Assembly: GCA_017852075.1 (NCBI GenBank)
Contig: JAFMLQ010000012.1
Location: 1-50,333 of the forward strand
Direction: 5' to 3'
DNA length: 50,333 bases
DNA from: Flavobacteriaceae bacterium
Lineage (GTDB): Bacteria > Bacteroidota > Bacteroidia > Flavobacteriales > Flavobacteriaceae
Shown: piece after piece, positions 1,372 to 33,665 of the stretch
Layout of the letters: each line of letters starts with the position of its first letter
Position numbering within the stretch: the stretch's first letter is position 1
Translations under genes and position numbers: made by a program
Notes under the pieces: generated by a model
What the model saw: only the letters and a program-made list of their open reading frames with translations
What the model was told of the DNA's origin: nothing
Databases searched by the model: none

Positions 1372-1408
1372 AAAAAAAAACACAAAGTTTGACTTTGTGT
1401 TTTTTTTT
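1372..1408. terminator. bidirectional intrinsic terminator between the M16 gene and nqrF
   Basis: A perfect 7-bp stem CACAAAG (1381-1387) / CTTTGTG (1393-1399) with loop TTTGA is flanked by A9 on the left and T9 on the right. It therefore has a U-tract in both directions and can end both convergent transcripts. Confidence 0.8.
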
Positions 1409-1430
1409 GATCTAAATTCAGCTTTGTGAT

Positions 1431-2726
1431 TTAACCACCAAAATCATCAAACCTTACATTTTCAGGAGGAACTCCAAAGTCTTCAGCCATTCGTTCTACC
1501 GCTTGATTCATCAACGGTGGGCCACAGAAGTATACTTCAATATCTTCTGGTGCATCATGGTTAGAAAGGTATTGATCAATTACAACTTGATGCACAAAAC
1601 CTGTAAATCCATCTCCTTCAGATTCCAAACTGGTTTTTTCTTTCCAATTGTCTTCTTCAAGAGGTTCAGATAAGGCAATGTAAAATTTAAAGTTGGAGAA
1701 GTCTTTTTCCAAAGCTCTAAAATGGTCAATATAAAACAATTCTCTTTTTGATCGACCTCCATACCAAAACGTAACTATACGTCCTGTTTTGAGGGTTCTA
1801 AATAACTCATACAAATGCGATCTCATGGGTGCCATTCCAGCTCCTCCTCCTACATAGAGCATTTCCGAGTCAGACTCATTGATAAAAAATTCTCCATAAG
1901 GTCCTGATATGGTTACTTTATCTCCAGGCTTTTTTGAGAAAATATATGAAGATGCCACACCAGGGTTGACATCCATCCAATCATTTTTTGCACGGTCAAA
2001 AGGAGGTGCTGCAATGCGAACATTCAACATTATTTCTTTTCCTTCAGCAGGAAAAGAGGCCATGGAATAGGCGCGTTCTACCGTCTCTGGATTTTTCATC
2101 ACCAACGGCCAAAGCTTAAATTTATCCCATTCCAATTTGAATTTATCAGGTTCACCTGGATGTTCTTCAGGGTGTGCAGAAATATCTATGTCTTCGTATT
2201 TGACCTCACATTGGGGTATTTCAATTTGAATATACCCTCCCGCTTTATAGTCCATTTCTTCTGGAATTTTAACCACAAATTCTTTAATGAAAGACGCCAC
2301 ATTCCAGTTACGTACTACGGTAGCTTCATATTTCTTAATTCCAAAAACCTCTTCTGGAACCTGTATGACCATATCTTGTTTTACTTTTACCTGACAGCCT
2401 AAACGCCATCCTTCAGCAACTTCTTTTCTTGAAAAATGCGGTGCTTCTGTAGGCAGAATTTCTCCTCCCCCTTCTAAGACTTGACATTTGCACTGTATAC
2501 AGGTGCCCCCTCCTCCACAGGCTGAGGGGAGAAAAATTTTATTATTTCCCAAGGTGCTCAAAAGTGTACTTCCAGAAGAAACTTCAACTTTATTCCCTCC
2601 ATTAATCAACAAGGAAACAGGGCCAGAAGGCAATAATTTTGCTTTGGCTCCCAGTAACATCCCAACCAATAAAAAGGTGATAGTTAAAAACACAACAATA
2701 CTCGCAATAACAACCGTGTACTCCAT
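1431..2726 (-). CDS. nqrF: Na+-translocating NADH:quinone reductase subunit F (NADH-oxidising, FAD and 2Fe-2S)
   Basis: Entry subunit of the Na+-NQR complex: it oxidises NADH through FAD and passes electrons to a 2Fe-2S cluster. The 431-residue protein has one N-terminal membrane helix (about residues 5-27). A plant-type ferredoxin domain follows, with Cys70-X5-Cys76-X2-Cys79 and Cys111. Next come the flavin motif RAYSMAS (about 219) and the NAD-binding segment YVGGGAGMAPMRSHL. The C-terminal end FDDFGG fits the family, and the length is slightly above the usual ~410. It is the last gene of nqrABCDEF, 7 nt after nqrE, and ends at a bidirectional terminator. Confidence 0.97.
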   Translation of the reverse strand: MEYTVVIASIVVFLTITFLLVGMLLGAKAKLLPSGPVSLLINGGNKVEVSSGSTLLSTLGNNKIFLPSACGGGGTCIQCKCQVLEGGGEILPTEAPHFSRKEVAEGWRLGCQVKVKQDMVIQVPEEVFGIKKYEATVVRNWNVASFIKEFVVKIPEEMDYKAGGYIQIEIPQCEVKYEDIDISAHPEEHPGEPDKFKLEWDKFKLWPLVMKNPETVERAYSMASFPAEGKEIMLNVRIAAPPFDRAKNDWMDVNPGVASSYIFSKKPGDKVTISGPYGEFFINESDSEMLYVGGGAGMAPMRSHLYELFRTLKTGRIVTFWYGGRSKRELFYIDHFRALEKDFSNFKFYIALSEPLEEDNWKEKTSLESEGDGFTGFVHQVVIDQYLSNHDAPEDIEVYFCGPPLMNQAVERMAEDFGVPPENVRFDDFGG

Positions 2727-16074: not shown

Positions 16075-17157
16075 TTAAGAATTTAAAATTTTCTCCTGCT
16101 TATTTATGGATTCTTGGTGTATCGCTTTAAATACTCGTAGAATAAATTCCTCAGACAAATCTCGGTCTTCTCCTTCCAAAATCATTTTTCCTAAAATCTC
16201 GTTCCAGCGTTTATTTTGTAAAACGGCGACATTATTGGTTTTTTTCAATGCTCCAATTTCAAGTGCTATTTTCATTCGTTTTCCTAAGGTATCCAAAAGG
16301 TTTTGGTCAGCCACGTCAATCTGGGTGCGGAGGTTGTTGAGTTGATGTTTGTAGGCTTCTTCATCAGTCGTTTTTTTACGGACCTTGAGGTCTTTCATAA
16401 TTTCGATCAGACGGGTTGGAGTTACCTGTTGTTTGGCATCACTCCAAGCATTGTCAGGATCCCAATGCGATTCAATCATCAAACCTTCAAAGTTCAAGTC
16501 CAATGCAGCTTGAGAAACATCAAAAATCAAATCACGACGACCCGAAATATGGGAAGGGTCACAAATCATTGGTAAATCTGGAAATCGGTTTTTTACTTCA
16601 ATTGCAATTTGCCATTCTGGAATATTTCGATATTTGGTTTTCTCATAGGTTGAAAACCCTCTATGAATGAGTCCTAAATTTTTAATATTGGCCGTATACA
16701 AGCGCTCTACTCCCCCCAACCAAAGAGCCAAATCTGGATTTACTGGGTTTTTTACTAAAACGATTTTATCTGTTCCTTCAAGAGCATCAGCAATTTCTTG
16801 CATAATGAAAGGACTTACCGTTGAACGAGCACCAATCCACAATATGTCTACATCGTTATCGATGGCCAGTTTTACATGGTCTTTGTTGGCTACCTCGGTA
16901 GCGGTCAGCAAGCCTGTCTGTTCTTTTACTTTTTTAAGCCATCCTAATCCTATGGCGCCCACCCCTTCAAACATTCCAGGTCGGGTTCTAGGTTTCCAAA
17001 TTCCAGCACGATATACTGTTACATCTGTATCTTTGAGTTCATGTGCAATTTTTAATACTTGCTCTTCCGTTTCTGCGCTACAAGGACCTCCAATTACCAA
17101 AGGGTGATCTAACCCAAAGTTGTCTAACCATTGACGCATTTCTTTTTTATTTTCCAT
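16075..17157 (-). CDS. bifunctional DAHP synthase / chorismate mutase
   Basis: This protein joins the entry and branch enzymes of aromatic amino acid synthesis. Residues about 1-260 form a DAHP synthase of the AroA-I-beta/KDO8P-synthase-like group (VIGGPCSAETEEQ, YRAGIWKPRTRPGMFEGVG, IWIGARST, LVKNPVNPDLALW, CDPSHISGRRDLI). Residues about 265-350 form an AroQ-type chorismate mutase helix bundle (LRTQIDVADQNLLDTLGKRM, IGALKKTNN, ILEGEDRDLSEEFI). A fused mutase often serves as the sensor for feedback inhibition. The gene sits fourth in the operon, 28 nt after tyrA. At 360 residues it is the normal length for this fusion. Confidence 0.95.
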   Translation of the reverse strand: MENKKEMRQWLDNFGLDHPLVIGGPCSAETEEQVLKIAHELKDTDVTVYRAGIWKPRTRPGMFEGVGAIGLGWLKKVKEQTGLLTATEVANKDHVKLAIDNDVDILWIGARSTVSPFIMQEIADALEGTDKIVLVKNPVNPDLALWLGGVERLYTANIKNLGLIHRGFSTYEKTKYRNIPEWQIAIEVKNRFPDLPMICDPSHISGRRDLIFDVSQAALDLNFEGLMIESHWDPDNAWSDAKQQVTPTRLIEIMKDLKVRKKTTDEEAYKHQLNNLRTQIDVADQNLLDTLGKRMKIALEIGALKKTNNVAVLQNKRWNEILGKMILEGEDRDLSEEFILRVFKAIHQESINKQEKILNS

Positions 17158-17185: not shown

Positions 17186-18034
17186 TTAATTTATTCCTGC
17201 CAAAATTGTTTTGATGGCATTGGTTTCTTGCATTTTTTGATAAATCGCTTCGTAGTCTTCTTGCTCCATGAGCATTTTAAATTCCTGTAAATTGGCGATG
17301 TATTCACCTAGTACTTCTAAAATATTTTCTTGATTTTGTTTAAATATTGGCGTCCACATGGCGGGTGAACTTTTTGCCAAACGAACGGTAGATGCAAACC
17401 CACTACCAGCCATAGCAAAAATAGCTTTTTCGTCTTTTTCTTTTTCCATCACAGTTTTCCCCAACATAAAAGAAGAAATATGAGATAAATGAGATACGTA
17501 AGCGATATGTTGATCATGTTCTTTTGGATCCATTTCTTGAATGACCATTTCCATGTTTTTAAACCACTGCACTGCCCACTCGAATAAGTCGGGGCGGGTC
17601 TTGTGCGTTTCACATAAAATTTGTGCCTTCCCTTTATACAAAGTAGCGAAGGCTGATGAAGGTCCAGAAAATTCAGTCCCTGCGATGGGGTGGGTCGCCA
17701 AAAATTGATTGCGCTTCGGATGTAGCTCCAGAGCATTACAAATTAGGGATTTTGTTGATCCTACGTCAATCAACAACGCATTGTCATTCATCTGGTCTAG
17801 TAGTGGTAAAGCAATTTGTATTGCAGCATCCACAGGAATAGCTAGAATAATTACATCCATATTGGCATAATTGGAGCTGCCTAATGTATGATCTATAAGT
17901 CCTAAATCTAGGGCTTCCTTTTGATGGTCTGAATTTTGGTCTTCTCCAAACAATTCACAAGCGGTGATCTGCTTTTTCGCAGCCAAAGCGAGAGATCCGC
18001 CAATCAATCCTAATCCGATGACTCCTATATTCAT
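17186..18034 (-). CDS. tyrA: prephenate dehydrogenase
   Basis: It oxidatively decarboxylates prephenate to 4-hydroxyphenylpyruvate, the tyrosine branch. The 282-residue protein opens with the Rossmann motif GVIGLGLIGGSLALAAKK. It continues with VIILAIPVDAAIQI, LIDVGSTKSLI, THPIAGTEFSGP (substrate-binding His) and IAYVSHLSHISSFML. There is no ACT domain, so feedback by tyrosine would have to act elsewhere. Its start overlaps the end of the aminotransferase gene by 4 bases, which points to translational coupling. Confidence 0.95.
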   Translation of the reverse strand: MNIGVIGLGLIGGSLALAAKKQITACELFGEDQNSDHQKEALDLGLIDHTLGSSNYANMDVIILAIPVDAAIQIALPLLDQMNDNALLIDVGSTKSLICNALELHPKRNQFLATHPIAGTEFSGPSSAFATLYKGKAQILCETHKTRPDLFEWAVQWFKNMEMVIQEMDPKEHDQHIAYVSHLSHISSFMLGKTVMEKEKDEKAIFAMAGSGFASTVRLAKSSPAMWTPIFKQNQENILEVLGEYIANLQEFKMLMEQEDYEAIYQKMQETNAIKTILAGIN

Positions 18035-19179
18035 AATTCAATACGTTTTATGGCTTCTTTTATCGTATCCTCAGGTACACAAAGCGAAAACCGAATATAG
18101 CCTTCACCTTGGCTTCCAAAAATAGTTCCTGGGGTGATAAAGATATTTTTCTCATGCAACAGGGTATTGATAAAGACCTCTGCATCTGGGGCTTCTTTAG
18201 GGAGTTTAGCCCATAGAAAGAGGCCTACACTTTGTGACTCTATAGTGGTTCCCAGTTTTTGTGCCAAAACCTCCATTAAAACGCGACGCTTTTTATAAAT
18301 GTCATTGAATTCCTCAAACCAATCAGAGGTCATTTTCAATGCTGCTATAGCTCCTTGCTGGACACCGAAGAACATCCCGGAGTCCATATTACTTTTGACT
18401 TTAAGCACCTCTTGTAAGACAGTTGCTTTTCCAGAAAGCATCCCCACACGCCAACCTGCCATATTAAAGGATTTGCTCAAAGAATTAAGCTCTACAGCCA
18501 CTTCGCTAGCTCCTGGTCGGGACAAAATACTTTTAGGCTTTTTAGTCAATACAAAACTGTAGGGATTGTCATTCACCAATAAAATGTCGCGTTCTTTTGC
18601 CCAACGAATTAAATAGTCAAAAGTTGCTATGGACACATCAGTGCCGGTAGGCATATGAGGATAGTTAAGCCACATGATCTTGACTTTGGACGTATCCATT
18701 GCCTCTAATGCCTCTAAATCAGGCTGCCATCCGTTGCTCGCTTTCAATTCATACAGAACGGCTTCTGCCTCCATCAAACGGCTTACTGAGGCATAGGTTG
18801 GATAGCCTGGATTGGGAATCAATACCTGATCACCTGGATTGAGAAAAGCCATAGAAAGATGCATGATTCCTTCTTTAGATCCCATTAAAGGAAGAGTTTG
18901 CGAATTGGGATCCAAAGTGACTTTATAATGAGTTTTATAAAAATCTGAAATCGCTTTACGAAGTTCAGGTAGTCCCTGATAGCTTTGATACATATGCGCT
19001 TTGGGATGCATAAGGGCTTCTTTTAATGCGCTTACCACGTCTGGGTGAGGCTTTAAATCTGGACTACCAATACCCATGTTGATGACAGGTTTACCTTCTT
19101 TTATCATTTCTGCAACTTCTCTGAGTTTTCGAGAAAAGTAGTATTCCTTTACACTATGTAAACGTGTGGCTGTTTTCAT
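18031..19179 (-). CDS. class I/II aminotransferase of the aromatic operon
   Basis: PLP aminotransferase of 382 residues with GIGSPDLKPHPDVV, YQSYQGLPELRKAI, NPGYPTYASVSRL, the motif VNDNPYSFVL, and the Schiff-base Lys236 in NSLSKSFNMAGWRVG. It overlaps pheA by 4 bases and tyrA by 4 bases. This placement suggests that it transaminates phenylpyruvate and 4-hydroxyphenylpyruvate, or prephenate, to finish Phe and Tyr. The sequence alone resembles the broad LL-diaminopimelate/aspartate aminotransferase group, so the specificity is an inference from context. Confidence 0.88.
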   Translation of the reverse strand: MKTATRLHSVKEYYFSRKLREVAEMIKEGKPVINMGIGSPDLKPHPDVVSALKEALMHPKAHMYQSYQGLPELRKAISDFYKTHYKVTLDPNSQTLPLMGSKEGIMHLSMAFLNPGDQVLIPNPGYPTYASVSRLMEAEAVLYELKASNGWQPDLEALEAMDTSKVKIMWLNYPHMPTGTDVSIATFDYLIRWAKERDILLVNDNPYSFVLTKKPKSILSRPGASEVAVELNSLSKSFNMAGWRVGMLSGKATVLQEVLKVKSNMDSGMFFGVQQGAIAALKMTSDWFEEFNDIYKKRRVLMEVLAQKLGTTIESQSVGLFLWAKLPKEAPDAEVFINTLLHEKNIFITPGTIFGSQGEGYIRFSLCVPEDTIKEAIKRIEL

Positions 19180-20009
19180 CTTTGGTGTTGAGCGTATTCG
19201 CCTAAAATTTTAAATTTCGAGGCCATAATGGCAATTAACTTTCTCGCTTTTTCGTAATGGGTAAAATCATCAAAAGTAACGTCTACAAAAAAGGCGTATT
19301 TCCCTGGAGTTTCAATTACAGGTAATGATTGAATTTTGGTCAAATTGAGCTGACAATCACTCATCACATTAAGTACCGCAGCCAAGCTTCCCCTTTGGTG
19401 ATCTAAAGTAAATTTCAGCGCAGCTTTGTTAATTTGTGATTTGGAGACTAGATCTCCTTTTCTTTGGACAATTACAAAACGAGTCACATTGTTTTTAATG
19501 GTTTGAATGGAAGTGGCGAAAACAGTCAATTGATAAAGTTCGGCTGCCTCTTGACTGGCAATTGCTCCAATACCTTTAATTTGATTTTTAGAAATTCTTT
19601 GAGCTTCTTCTGCCGTATCTTCTGCCTCTACCAAACGAATATGGGGATGCTGCTGAAAAAAGTTTTTACATTGCAACAACGCCATGGGGTGGGAATGAAC
19701 CTCTTTAAGATCTTTAATTGTCTGGCCGGAAAGTCCCATAAGGTTGTGATGGATACTCAAACCGTACTCTCCAACAATTTTTAAATCATTTTGATCGATC
19801 AAAGCATAATTGGGAATGATAGAACCTGCAATTGAATTTTCAATGGCCAGTACCGCTTGCTCTGATTCACCGTCAACAAGAGTCTGAATTGTATCATCAA
19901 AAGTGTCACAAGGCAACAAATCCAATTGGGCACCAAAGTAGCGCTGGGCAACAATATGATGGAAAGATCCTTGCTTTCCCTGAATGGCTACTTTTGTTTT
20001 TGCTTTCAT
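19176..20009 (-). CDS. pheA: prephenate dehydratase
   Basis: It converts prephenate to phenylpyruvate, the phenylalanine branch. The 277-residue protein has the PDT domain (KVAIQGKQGSFHHIVAQRYFG, VLAIENSIAGSI, SHPMALLQCKNF, IASQEAAELY, and NVTRFVIVQRK with the catalytic Thr in TRF). A C-terminal ACT domain (KFTLDHQRGSLAAVLNVMSDCQLNLTKIQSLPV) is expected to bind phenylalanine for feedback inhibition. There is no chorismate mutase domain; that activity is on the downstream DAHP synthase fusion. It is the first gene of the operon and lies directly behind the attenuator. Confidence 0.96.
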   Translation of the reverse strand: MKAKTKVAIQGKQGSFHHIVAQRYFGAQLDLLPCDTFDDTIQTLVDGESEQAVLAIENSIAGSIIPNYALIDQNDLKIVGEYGLSIHHNLMGLSGQTIKDLKEVHSHPMALLQCKNFFQQHPHIRLVEAEDTAEEAQRISKNQIKGIGAIASQEAAELYQLTVFATSIQTIKNNVTRFVIVQRKGDLVSKSQINKAALKFTLDHQRGSLAAVLNVMSDCQLNLTKIQSLPVIETPGKYAFFVDVTFDDFTHYEKARKLIAIMASKFKILGEYAQHQR

Positions 20010-20017
20010 TTTAATTC

Positions 20018-20050
20018 AAAAAAAAAGTCCCGATAAACTCAGGACTTTTT
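20018..20050 (-). terminator. attenuator terminator of the aromatic operon (arms 3 and 4)
   Basis: On the minus strand AAAAAGTCCTGA (20050-20039) pairs with TCGGGACTTTTT, giving a 12-bp stem with one G-U pair, a GTTTA loop and a run of nine T. It ends 8 nt before the pheA ATG and would stop transcription before the gene. Arm 3 can instead pair with an upstream copy of the complement, AGGACTTT (20085-20078). Confidence 0.88.
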
Positions 20051-20073
20051 AATTCTATATTGTTATTCCAATA

Positions 20074-20142
20074 CTACAAAGTCCTATCTGCTTCCGTATA
20101 GAAGTAGTAAAAACTGTTGTAGTAAAAGAATGAGTTTTTCAT
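20074..20142 (-). CDS. Phe/Tyr-rich leader peptide of the pheA attenuator
   Basis: A 22-codon reading frame from ATG (20142) to TAG (20074). Residues 5-15 read FFYYNSFYYFY, which is four Phe and five Tyr in 11 positions, followed by TEADRTL. The longer in-frame frame to 20271 is not used, because the promoter -7 element is at 20158-20165 and transcription should begin about 8-10 nt before this ATG. The last codons (AGG ACT TTG) contain the antiterminator arm AGGACTTT. Ribosomes slowed at the aromatic codons would leave this arm free, while ribosomes at the stop would cover it. The peptide itself probably has no further function. Confidence 0.88.
   Translation of the reverse strand: MKNSFFYYNSFYYFYTEADRTL
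20078..20085 (-). promoter_or_regulatory. antiterminator arm (arm 2) of the pheA attenuator
   Basis: AGGACTTT is a perfect 8-nt complement of AAAGTCCT inside the 5' arm of the terminator (20041-20048), extendable by one U-G pair. It lies inside the final sense codons of the leader peptide. A ribosome finishing translation would mask it; a ribosome stalled on the Phe/Tyr run would not. Confidence 0.82.
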
Positions 20143-20157
20143 TTTAACAAATCTGGA

Positions 20158-20188
20158 CAAATTTACCATTGCTTTTGATAAAAACAAA
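20158..20188 (-). promoter_or_regulatory. promoter of the aromatic amino acid operon
   Basis: On the minus strand TTTG (20188-20185), a 19-nt spacer and TAAATTTG (20165-20158) form a full match to the Bacteroidota housekeeping promoter. It places the RNA start about 10 nt before the leader peptide ATG. Confidence 0.75.
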
Positions 20189-20285: not shown

Positions 20286-20723
20286 ATGAAAAAAATAGTT
20301 CTTTATCGTAATAACTACCTAGGCCCAGAAATTTTAGGTCATTTGATGGTCTTTGAAGACAACTCTTTTGGAGGGAGTCGGATGCTCTTCGAATGCAAAA
20401 CTCTTGAACTGGAATGGAAAAACAATGCGCGCAATATTTCTTGTCTCCCTGCGGGATTTTTTACAATTAAATGGGAACATTCCGCTCGATTCAATCGAAA
20501 TCTATGGGAATTAAAGGGAGTGCCGGGCAGAAGTGAAGCTAAAATTCACGTTGCCAATTACTATACCCAAATCCAAGGTTGCATAGGAGTGGGAGATATG
20601 CATACCCATATTAATGGAGACGCGATTCCCGATGTAAGAAATAGCTCCGTTACTCTGAATCGGTTGCATGAGGTCATGCATCCACAAGTTGAATCTACGA
20701 TTCGGATCATTGGAAAATCCTAA
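20286..20723 (+). CDS. DUF5675 family protein
   Basis: The 145-residue protein matches the pattern I know for DUF5675: an N-terminal strand set VLYRNNYLGPEILGHLMVFED, then FECKTLELEWKNNARNISCLPAGFFTIKWEHSARFNRNLWEL, then KIHVANYYTQIQGCIGVGDMH, and a short C-terminal helix NSSVTLNRLHEVM. The family has no established function and is found both in phages and in bacterial genomes. There is no signal peptide. The gene is divergent from the pheA attenuator, and no other phage-type gene is nearby. Confidence 0.8.
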   Translation: MKKIVLYRNNYLGPEILGHLMVFEDNSFGGSRMLFECKTLELEWKNNARNISCLPAGFFTIKWEHSARFNRNLWELKGVPGRSEAKIHVANYYTQIQGCIGVGDMHTHINGDAIPDVRNSSVTLNRLHEVMHPQVESTIRIIGKS

Positions 20724-33559: not shown

Positions 33560-33604
33560 GTTGCTTTTGTGGAAGGATTCAAACGGTGCGTTTTGAAAAG
33601 CAAC
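33560..33604 (-). promoter_or_regulatory. expression platform hairpins between the SAM-II aptamer and metK
   Basis: On the minus strand GTTGCTTTT (33604-33596) and AAAAGCAAC (33568-33560) form a perfect 9-bp stem ending 6 nt before the metK ATG. The same TGCTTT (33602-33597) can pair with AAAGCA (33612-33607), which lies inside the aptamer core. The two pairings exclude each other, as expected for a switch. Confidence 0.72.
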
Positions 33605-33656
33605 ACTGCTTTAGCATTTTTTTTTCGAGGTTTGCAATCAGTCAAATCCTTCCTCG
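33605..33656 (-). ncRNA. SAM-II riboswitch
   Basis: On the minus strand the P1 arms CGAGG (33656-33652) and CCTCG (33630-33626) enclose AAGGATTTGACTGATTGCA. The loop keeps the GATTT...TTGCAA pattern of SAM-II. Downstream come an A-rich strand and GCTAAAGCAGT. CAGT (33608-33605) can pair with ACTG in the loop (33642-33639) to form the pseudoknot P2. The layout matches the Sargasso metX SAM-II RNA almost block for block. SAM-II is known from alphaproteobacteria and Bacteroidota. Confidence 0.92.
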
Positions 33657-33665
33657 TTATTTGTA

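Follow-up and report, generated by a model that had tools for sequence, protein, structure and literature searches.

A predicted ribosome-mediated attenuator of phenylalanine and tyrosine synthesis upstream of pheA in Flavobacteriaceae

How does a member of the Flavobacteriaceae adjust transcription of its genes for phenylalanine and tyrosine synthesis to demand? The question is raised by a short region upstream of pheA in the stretch of 50,333 nucleotides analysed here (the window), in which sequence inspection reveals all parts of a putative attenuator on the minus strand, from 20188 to 20018. The promoter is of the Bacteroidota type, TTTG-N19-TAAATTTG; its -33 element TTTG (20185-20188) and -7 element (20158-20165) together match at 10 of 10 positions, exactly as a sequence-only reading of this DNA had described them. 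It is followed by an open reading frame for a leader peptide, MKNSFFYYNSFYYFYTEADRTL (20074-20142, minus strand), of 22 codons plus TAG, with the ATG starting at 20142 and the stop codon at 20074-20076. Codons 5-8 and 11-15 specify four Phe and five Tyr, and the aromatic 22-codon leader claimed before is thus indeed present. The 5' untranslated region would be only about 10-11 nt long, close to the 8-10 nt proposed earlier; we infer the RNA start by assuming 4-5 nt between the -7 box and the start, the value used for F. johnsoniae (PMC6847099).

Segment 1 of the leader RNA (UACUACAACAGUUUU, 20110-20124) lies within the control codons. Segment 2 (AGGACUUUGUAGUA, 20072-20085) comprises the last codons of the leader and its stop codon and includes the antiterminator arm (AGGACTTT / AGGACUUU, 20078-20085), which was correctly assigned to the last leader codons. 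Segment 3 (AAAGUCCUG, 20040-20048) is at the same time the 5' arm of the terminator and the 3' arm of the antiterminator. Segments 3 and 4 and a U9 tract form an intrinsic terminator (20018-20050), the hairpin of which extends from 20050 to 20022. Both a stem of 12 bp and a run of nine U are there as claimed, but they are not separate: five U are common to both. That this is the terminator of an upstream gene is ruled out because the upstream neighbour (20286-20723, plus strand) is divergent.

The first structural gene, pheA (19176-20009), encodes prephenate dehydratase (PDT); a match of its product to the ACT domain is under the Pfam cut-off. It is followed on the same minus strand by a gene for a class I/II aminotransferase (18031-19179), by tyrA, encoding prephenate dehydrogenase (PDH; 17186-18034), each overlapping its predecessor by 4 nt, and, 28 nt past tyrA, by a gene for a DAHP synthase fused to chorismate mutase (DAHP synthase-CM; 16075-17157). 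Judging from these overlaps and the short gap, the four genes could be carried on a single transcript, which could serve the synthesis of both Phe and Tyr. In the 73 pheA loci with full flanks, the aminotransferase gene follows pheA in the same orientation in all 73 and tyrA is kept in 70.

We consider it very likely that this region controls transcription of the Phe/Tyr synthesis cluster by ribosome-mediated attenuation, with charged tRNA-Phe and tRNA-Tyr as the signals sensed. According to this model, RNA polymerase would start about 10 nt ahead of the leader AUG and a ribosome would follow. During a shortage of charged Phe- or Tyr-tRNA, the ribosome would stall within codons 5-15 and cover segment 1, leaving segment 2 free to pair with segment 3 as it emerges; the terminator 3:4 would then be blocked and the operon transcribed. 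If both tRNAs are plentiful, the ribosome would reach the stop codon inside segment 2 and cover this segment, and the terminator would form. In the lineage of the window, a leader RNA free of ribosomes can also form the 1:2 pairing, which would favour termination.

Folding of the window's leader is consistent with these alternatives. The fold of the complete leader has z = -5.87, and the minimum-energy form consists of the terminator and a 1:2 hairpin, in which the antiterminator arm and the stop codon are engaged by segment 1 with its Phe and Tyr codons (UACUACAA and AGUUUU paired with UUGUAGUA and AGGACU). Folded separately, the 1:2 hairpin has -16.6 kcal/mol, the antiterminator 2:3 -12.7 kcal/mol and the terminator 3:4 -14.5 kcal/mol. 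The earlier statement that there is no clear protector hairpin is therefore wrong at this locus, where both the minimum-energy fold and the hairpin energy speak against it; the reduced two-state design derived from it does not apply here but may hold in many relatives.

To describe the effect of a ribosome, the A site was moved along the leader codon by codon, and each time the 13 nt beginning with the first base of the codon were masked, with a single footprint length and equilibrium folding. In the window, the modelled probability of the antiterminator is 0.99-1.00 with the ribosome at codons 4-16 and 0.07-0.46 from codon 17 to the stop (0.14 at codon 17, 0.46 at codon 21 and 0.23 at the stop). 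Since the control codons are codons 5-15, the predicted switch point lies just past them. Over 102 loci of the family, the mean is 0.97 for the aromatic codons, 0.91 for the last three of these and 0.14 for the stop codon, and at 101 of the 102 the value for the last three aromatic codons is higher than that for the stop by a margin above 0.1. At three loci (L005, L006, L038) the prediction stays above 0.5 even with the ribosome at the stop. Apparently, the stop codon is positioned such that a terminating ribosome, and not a stalled one, would mask segment 2. Shuffling of the tails lowers the probability for an exposed segment 2 from 0.99 to 0.63; the pairing that is left, above 0.9 in 259 of 1020 shuffled tails, indicates that tails rich in A+U get some of it by chance.

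Without a ribosome, the window has a probability of 0.42, and the 102 loci have a mean of 0.80 and a median of 0.95, with values below 0.5 in only 22. In most relatives, termination is thus not predicted for an untranslated leader, protection by the 1:2 hairpin is predicted to be weak, and only 37 of 102 loci have a value for the last three aromatic codons that lies more than 0.1 above the ribosome-free one. This high ribosome-free antitermination in many relatives would suit a constitutive or growth-rate-dependent attenuator, in which pheA transcription would be dampened by the terminator and only adjusted by a leader that reads general translation, with no specificity for an amino acid. The codons of the leaders are what makes it very unlikely.

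Relatives were compared for the aromatic leader, for the terminator and for compensatory changes in the arms, as proposed in the sequence-only reading. By a fixed criterion (six or more F/Y/W within 12 residues and a stop codon near a terminator), leader and terminator are present at 102 of 102 pheA loci of the Flavobacteriaceae, with none in 1020 dinucleotide shuffles and none on the 102 reverse strands, and both were thus conserved as anticipated. The 102 loci, which are related to each other and in part selected for similarity to the window's pheA, comprise 82 (L001-L082) and 20 more picked from search lists, and all 82 and all 20 match. L001 is the window's own locus, L002-L030 are the best 29 matches in family genomes and L031-L082 come from named genomes. 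The search of named genomes gave 53 pheA loci, most from Flavobacteriaceae or Flavobacteriales MAGs, with cultured carriers such as Bizionia, Flavobacterium and Hanstruepera; one of the 53, the distant protein of Candidatus Ancillula (L083), was excluded from every count. The closest among the 53 is Flavobacteriaceae bacterium UBA980 with 88% identity in pheA. Two terminators (L036, L043) have stems that extend through the U tract and were counted under the wider terminator rule.

The promoter is found as well. Ahead of the leader start, TTTG-N17/23-TAnnTTTG, matched at nine or more of its 10 positions, occurs at 90 of 101 testable loci, compared with 2 of 101 shuffles; L055 was left out since its upstream sequence is too short. 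At the 90 positive loci, the distance from the -7 box to the start codon has a median of 16 nt and a range of 7-30 nt.

Outside the family, leader and terminator were found in 9 of 20 loci from other families of the order, with one match on a reverse strand. The misses (L091, L093, L095-L103) include three genomes of 0.6 Mb and four with divergent pheA, and two of them (L093, L096) fall under the threshold of the fixed criterion, yet are matched by the covariance model R1 described below. Other orders of the class gave 12 of 15 loci. In other classes and a wider sample of the phylum the count was 1 of 35 (1 of 5 and 0 of 30, the 30 being the best PDT matches, among which L142 is an order genome also counted as L100), and the sole positive from another class, L170, has only E = 0.097 with R1.

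Homologues of pheA were found in 268 of 299 family genomes, and 12 of the 31 genomes without a match were examined. None of the 12 encodes a PDT domain and none a PDH domain, the latter being present in 4 of 4 comparison genomes, and all 12 retain the DAHP synthase-CM gene. Its upstream region could be assessed in 11, L258 being excluded because the contig begins inside the gene. A leader with adjacent Trp codons and a terminator precedes the gene in six of the 11 (L249, L251-L255), but this arrangement is absent from 13 loci of other PF00793 genes in these genomes and from all shuffles, of which 20 were made per locus. The other five have no Trp-Trp leader: in L250 a terminator accompanies a single Trp, so that a terminator-like hairpin occurs in seven of the 11, and four have neither. 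In these six genomes without pheA and tyrA, Trp codons stand in place of Phe and Tyr codons, and it appears that control codons track what the remaining pathway may still make, a suggestion drawn post hoc from a small set. The change is a natural experiment on regulatory re-coding.

Candidate leaders precede genes of other pathways as well. Reading of the upstream sequences in ten family genomes showed a terminator and a leader containing His codons ahead of hisG in 10 of 10, and a terminator and a leader with two or three adjacent Trp codons ahead of trpE, likewise in 10 of 10. An Ile/Val-rich leader with terminator precedes ilvD in 6 of 10; the window's own ilvD is without one. A leader that reads general translation does not account for aromatic codons retained at 102 of 102 pheA loci, for Trp codons in six of 11 assessable genomes lacking pheA and tyrA, or for His and Trp codons in front of hisG and trpE, which all favour the Phe/Tyr attenuator.

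The pairing of the arms was analysed in an alignment of 58 of 80 leaders, built without structure information; rows that were more than 93% alike or contained N were dropped. In the antiterminator 2:3, 79.4% of cells are paired compared with 28.6-49.5% when the arms are slid, and 43 cells carry double changes, a number reached in none of 500 shuffles; the number of pairs with a double change was reached in two of 500. Two of its pairs swap across lineages (A-U 24, G-C 18, G-U 5; G-C 32, A-U 18) and a third is altered in two rows (C-G 49, U-A 2). In the terminator, 91.4% of cells are paired and the third arm has changed to match (G-C 56, A-U 2). The anticipated compensatory changes are therefore seen in three antiterminator pairs, with matching changes in the terminator. 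One of five measures, the number of further pair types, is unexceptional, being reached in 54 of 500 shuffles for 2:3 and 40 of 500 for 3:4, and from this alignment RNAalifold predicts no structure other than the terminator. Altogether, covariation backs the antiterminator and the terminator as mutually exclusive structures.

For the 1:2 pairing the covariation is weak. Here 70.9% of cells are paired compared with 43.8-55.3% when slid, and 46 double-change cells are equalled in four of 500 shuffles, but 59 of the 500 reach as many pairs with a double change and 486 reach as many further pair types. Of 97 distinct leaders, 86 lie above a synonymous-codon null; these leaders are not independent, and the test counts every pair between the codons and the downstream leader, not 1:2 alone.

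The persistent aromatic stretch could also be seen as a product in its own right, a functional small aromatic, possibly membrane-bound peptide whose own transcript is served by the terminator. The strong aromatic content over 11 residues would suit this idea. What the relatives retain is the richness in aromatic residues and an arm at the stop codon, while peptide length and order vary: the 102 family loci have 98 distinct leaders and 95 distinct peptides. Together with the covariation of the arms, this makes a functional peptide extremely unlikely, and the attenuator that senses Phe- and Tyr-tRNA is retained as the preferred explanation.

From the 58 aligned leaders, that of the window included, the covariance model R1 was built. 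In the window's own genome it gives a single match, 20019-20142. It matches 111 of 120 family genomes, including 99 of 102 that carry pheA (G023, G035 and G092 are without a match). In 56 of 57 genomes compared by coordinates, the best match lies directly upstream of pheA; in the remaining genome, G048, the end of a contig holds the best match, and a separate match opens the contig that carries pheA. Twelve of 18 genomes lacking pheA are still matched, mostly weakly (best 2.6e-6). Seven other matches were inspected by eye: one (L234) precedes pheA, one (L233) precedes the DAHP synthase-CM gene, one (L229) could belong to a Met/Cys attenuator, and the remaining four have a terminator in which no aromatic leader was seen alongside. 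At weak scores R1 is thus not specific for pheA leaders.

No Rfam family matches 20018-20188 at its gathering score; the enterobacterial Phe_leader (RF01859) reaches 22.1 bits there, compared with a gathering score of 55, and the window's only match at gathering score is a SAM-II riboswitch at 33601-33661 (minus strand, 75.8 bits). That a metabolite riboswitch, a T-box or a protein-binding antiterminator is at work and the reading frame is incidental, an idea for which the structured leader (z = -5.87) could be cited, is extremely unlikely, as no riboswitch, T-box or known Rfam leader is matched at gathering score, no T-box is seen among the weak matches at the leader, and the position of the reading frame accounts for the alternative hairpins, the stalling window coinciding with the control codons. 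The conserved leader, the compensatory changes in the arms and the lack of an Rfam family all support attenuation by Phe- and Tyr-tRNA.

The predicted switch is of a known kind, and its breadth and re-coding are the notable part. Like the leader at the locus described here, the enterobacterial pheA leader has a leader reading frame, alternative hairpins, a terminator and pheA downstream. In E. coli this leader is rich in Phe only, and a Shine-Dalgarno site is used. In contrast, the present leader mixes Phe and Tyr codons, with tyrA in the same cluster. In ilvGMEDA of E. coli, one leader carries codons for several of the amino acids that the operon produces. The present leader resembles it in serving several products of one operon but differs in that the ilvGMEDA leader has Ile/Val/Leu codons and belongs to another phylum, whereas the codons here are for Phe and Tyr (and Trp).

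Whether the pheA attenuator has been described, which the sequence-only reading had left open, can be answered in part. A transcriptome study of F. psychrophilum from 2021 reported a conserved structured 5' element before pheA in Flavobacteriaceae, that is, at the same gene and in the same family; it found 5' elements before pheA and hisG in other genera, again without Rfam hits, and reported strong clues to leader-peptide attenuation before amino-acid operons (PMC9723704). The section of that paper on the element gives no leader sequence, arms, Phe/Tyr logic, covariation or distribution, some of which its supplements may contain. In B. thetaiotaomicron, small open reading frames reminiscent of attenuation leaders have been noted (PMC7366714). 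Our search of the literature, which covered open-access articles but neither their supplements nor preprints or subscription papers, gave no account of the Phe/Tyr leader, of its arms or of how widely it occurs. The locus adds a concrete candidate attenuator backed by covariation in a phylum for which this search gave only general hints.

It is tempting to extend the model. Attenuation of the trp type is probably a standard means of controlling amino-acid operons across this class of the Bacteroidota, sensing Phe/Tyr, His, Trp and Ile/Val through leaders that begin some 10 nt into the RNA, are re-coded upon loss of a pathway and can be stacked in tandem; the class-wide part is drawn from pheA, and the His, Trp and Ile/Val leaders from ten genomes of the family. 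If true, this would require functional coupling of transcription and translation without Shine-Dalgarno initiation, and it suggests that the phylum Bacteroidota, too, ties translation closely to transcription. The response of such attenuators depends on how fast the leader is transcribed relative to the translation of its control codons (PMC1183508), and the leader in F. johnsoniae would therefore be a direct test of coupling in Bacteroidota.

Further leaders were seen in passing. In the window's genome, attenuator-like leaders with His and Trp codons lie before hisG (L181, about 1375-1487, plus strand) and trpE (L191, about 2106-1993, minus strand). In a genome from another family of the order (G322), three tandem leader-terminator modules precede one pheA (L092, 184-590), with the peptides MKHITENKAFSFEAFFFNRKTQA (inside a longer reading frame), MNNLVSTFRFFGFFFFRKEGAMS and MNQNTQQNFSFFGFFFFKWKSEAVD and three R1 matches. 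At L229 (G030:C2:333607-333728, minus strand), the leader-like reading frame MITAISKHNHCMRMSFLLGTI and a terminator, possibly a Met/Cys attenuator, are followed by a gene that we take, from its sequence, to encode an O-acetylhomoserine sulfhydrylase-like enzyme. Upstream of ilvD, L202 has two terminators and at least one Ile/Val-rich leader, and L206 has two Ile/Val-rich leaders, each with a terminator, which suggests stacked attenuators.
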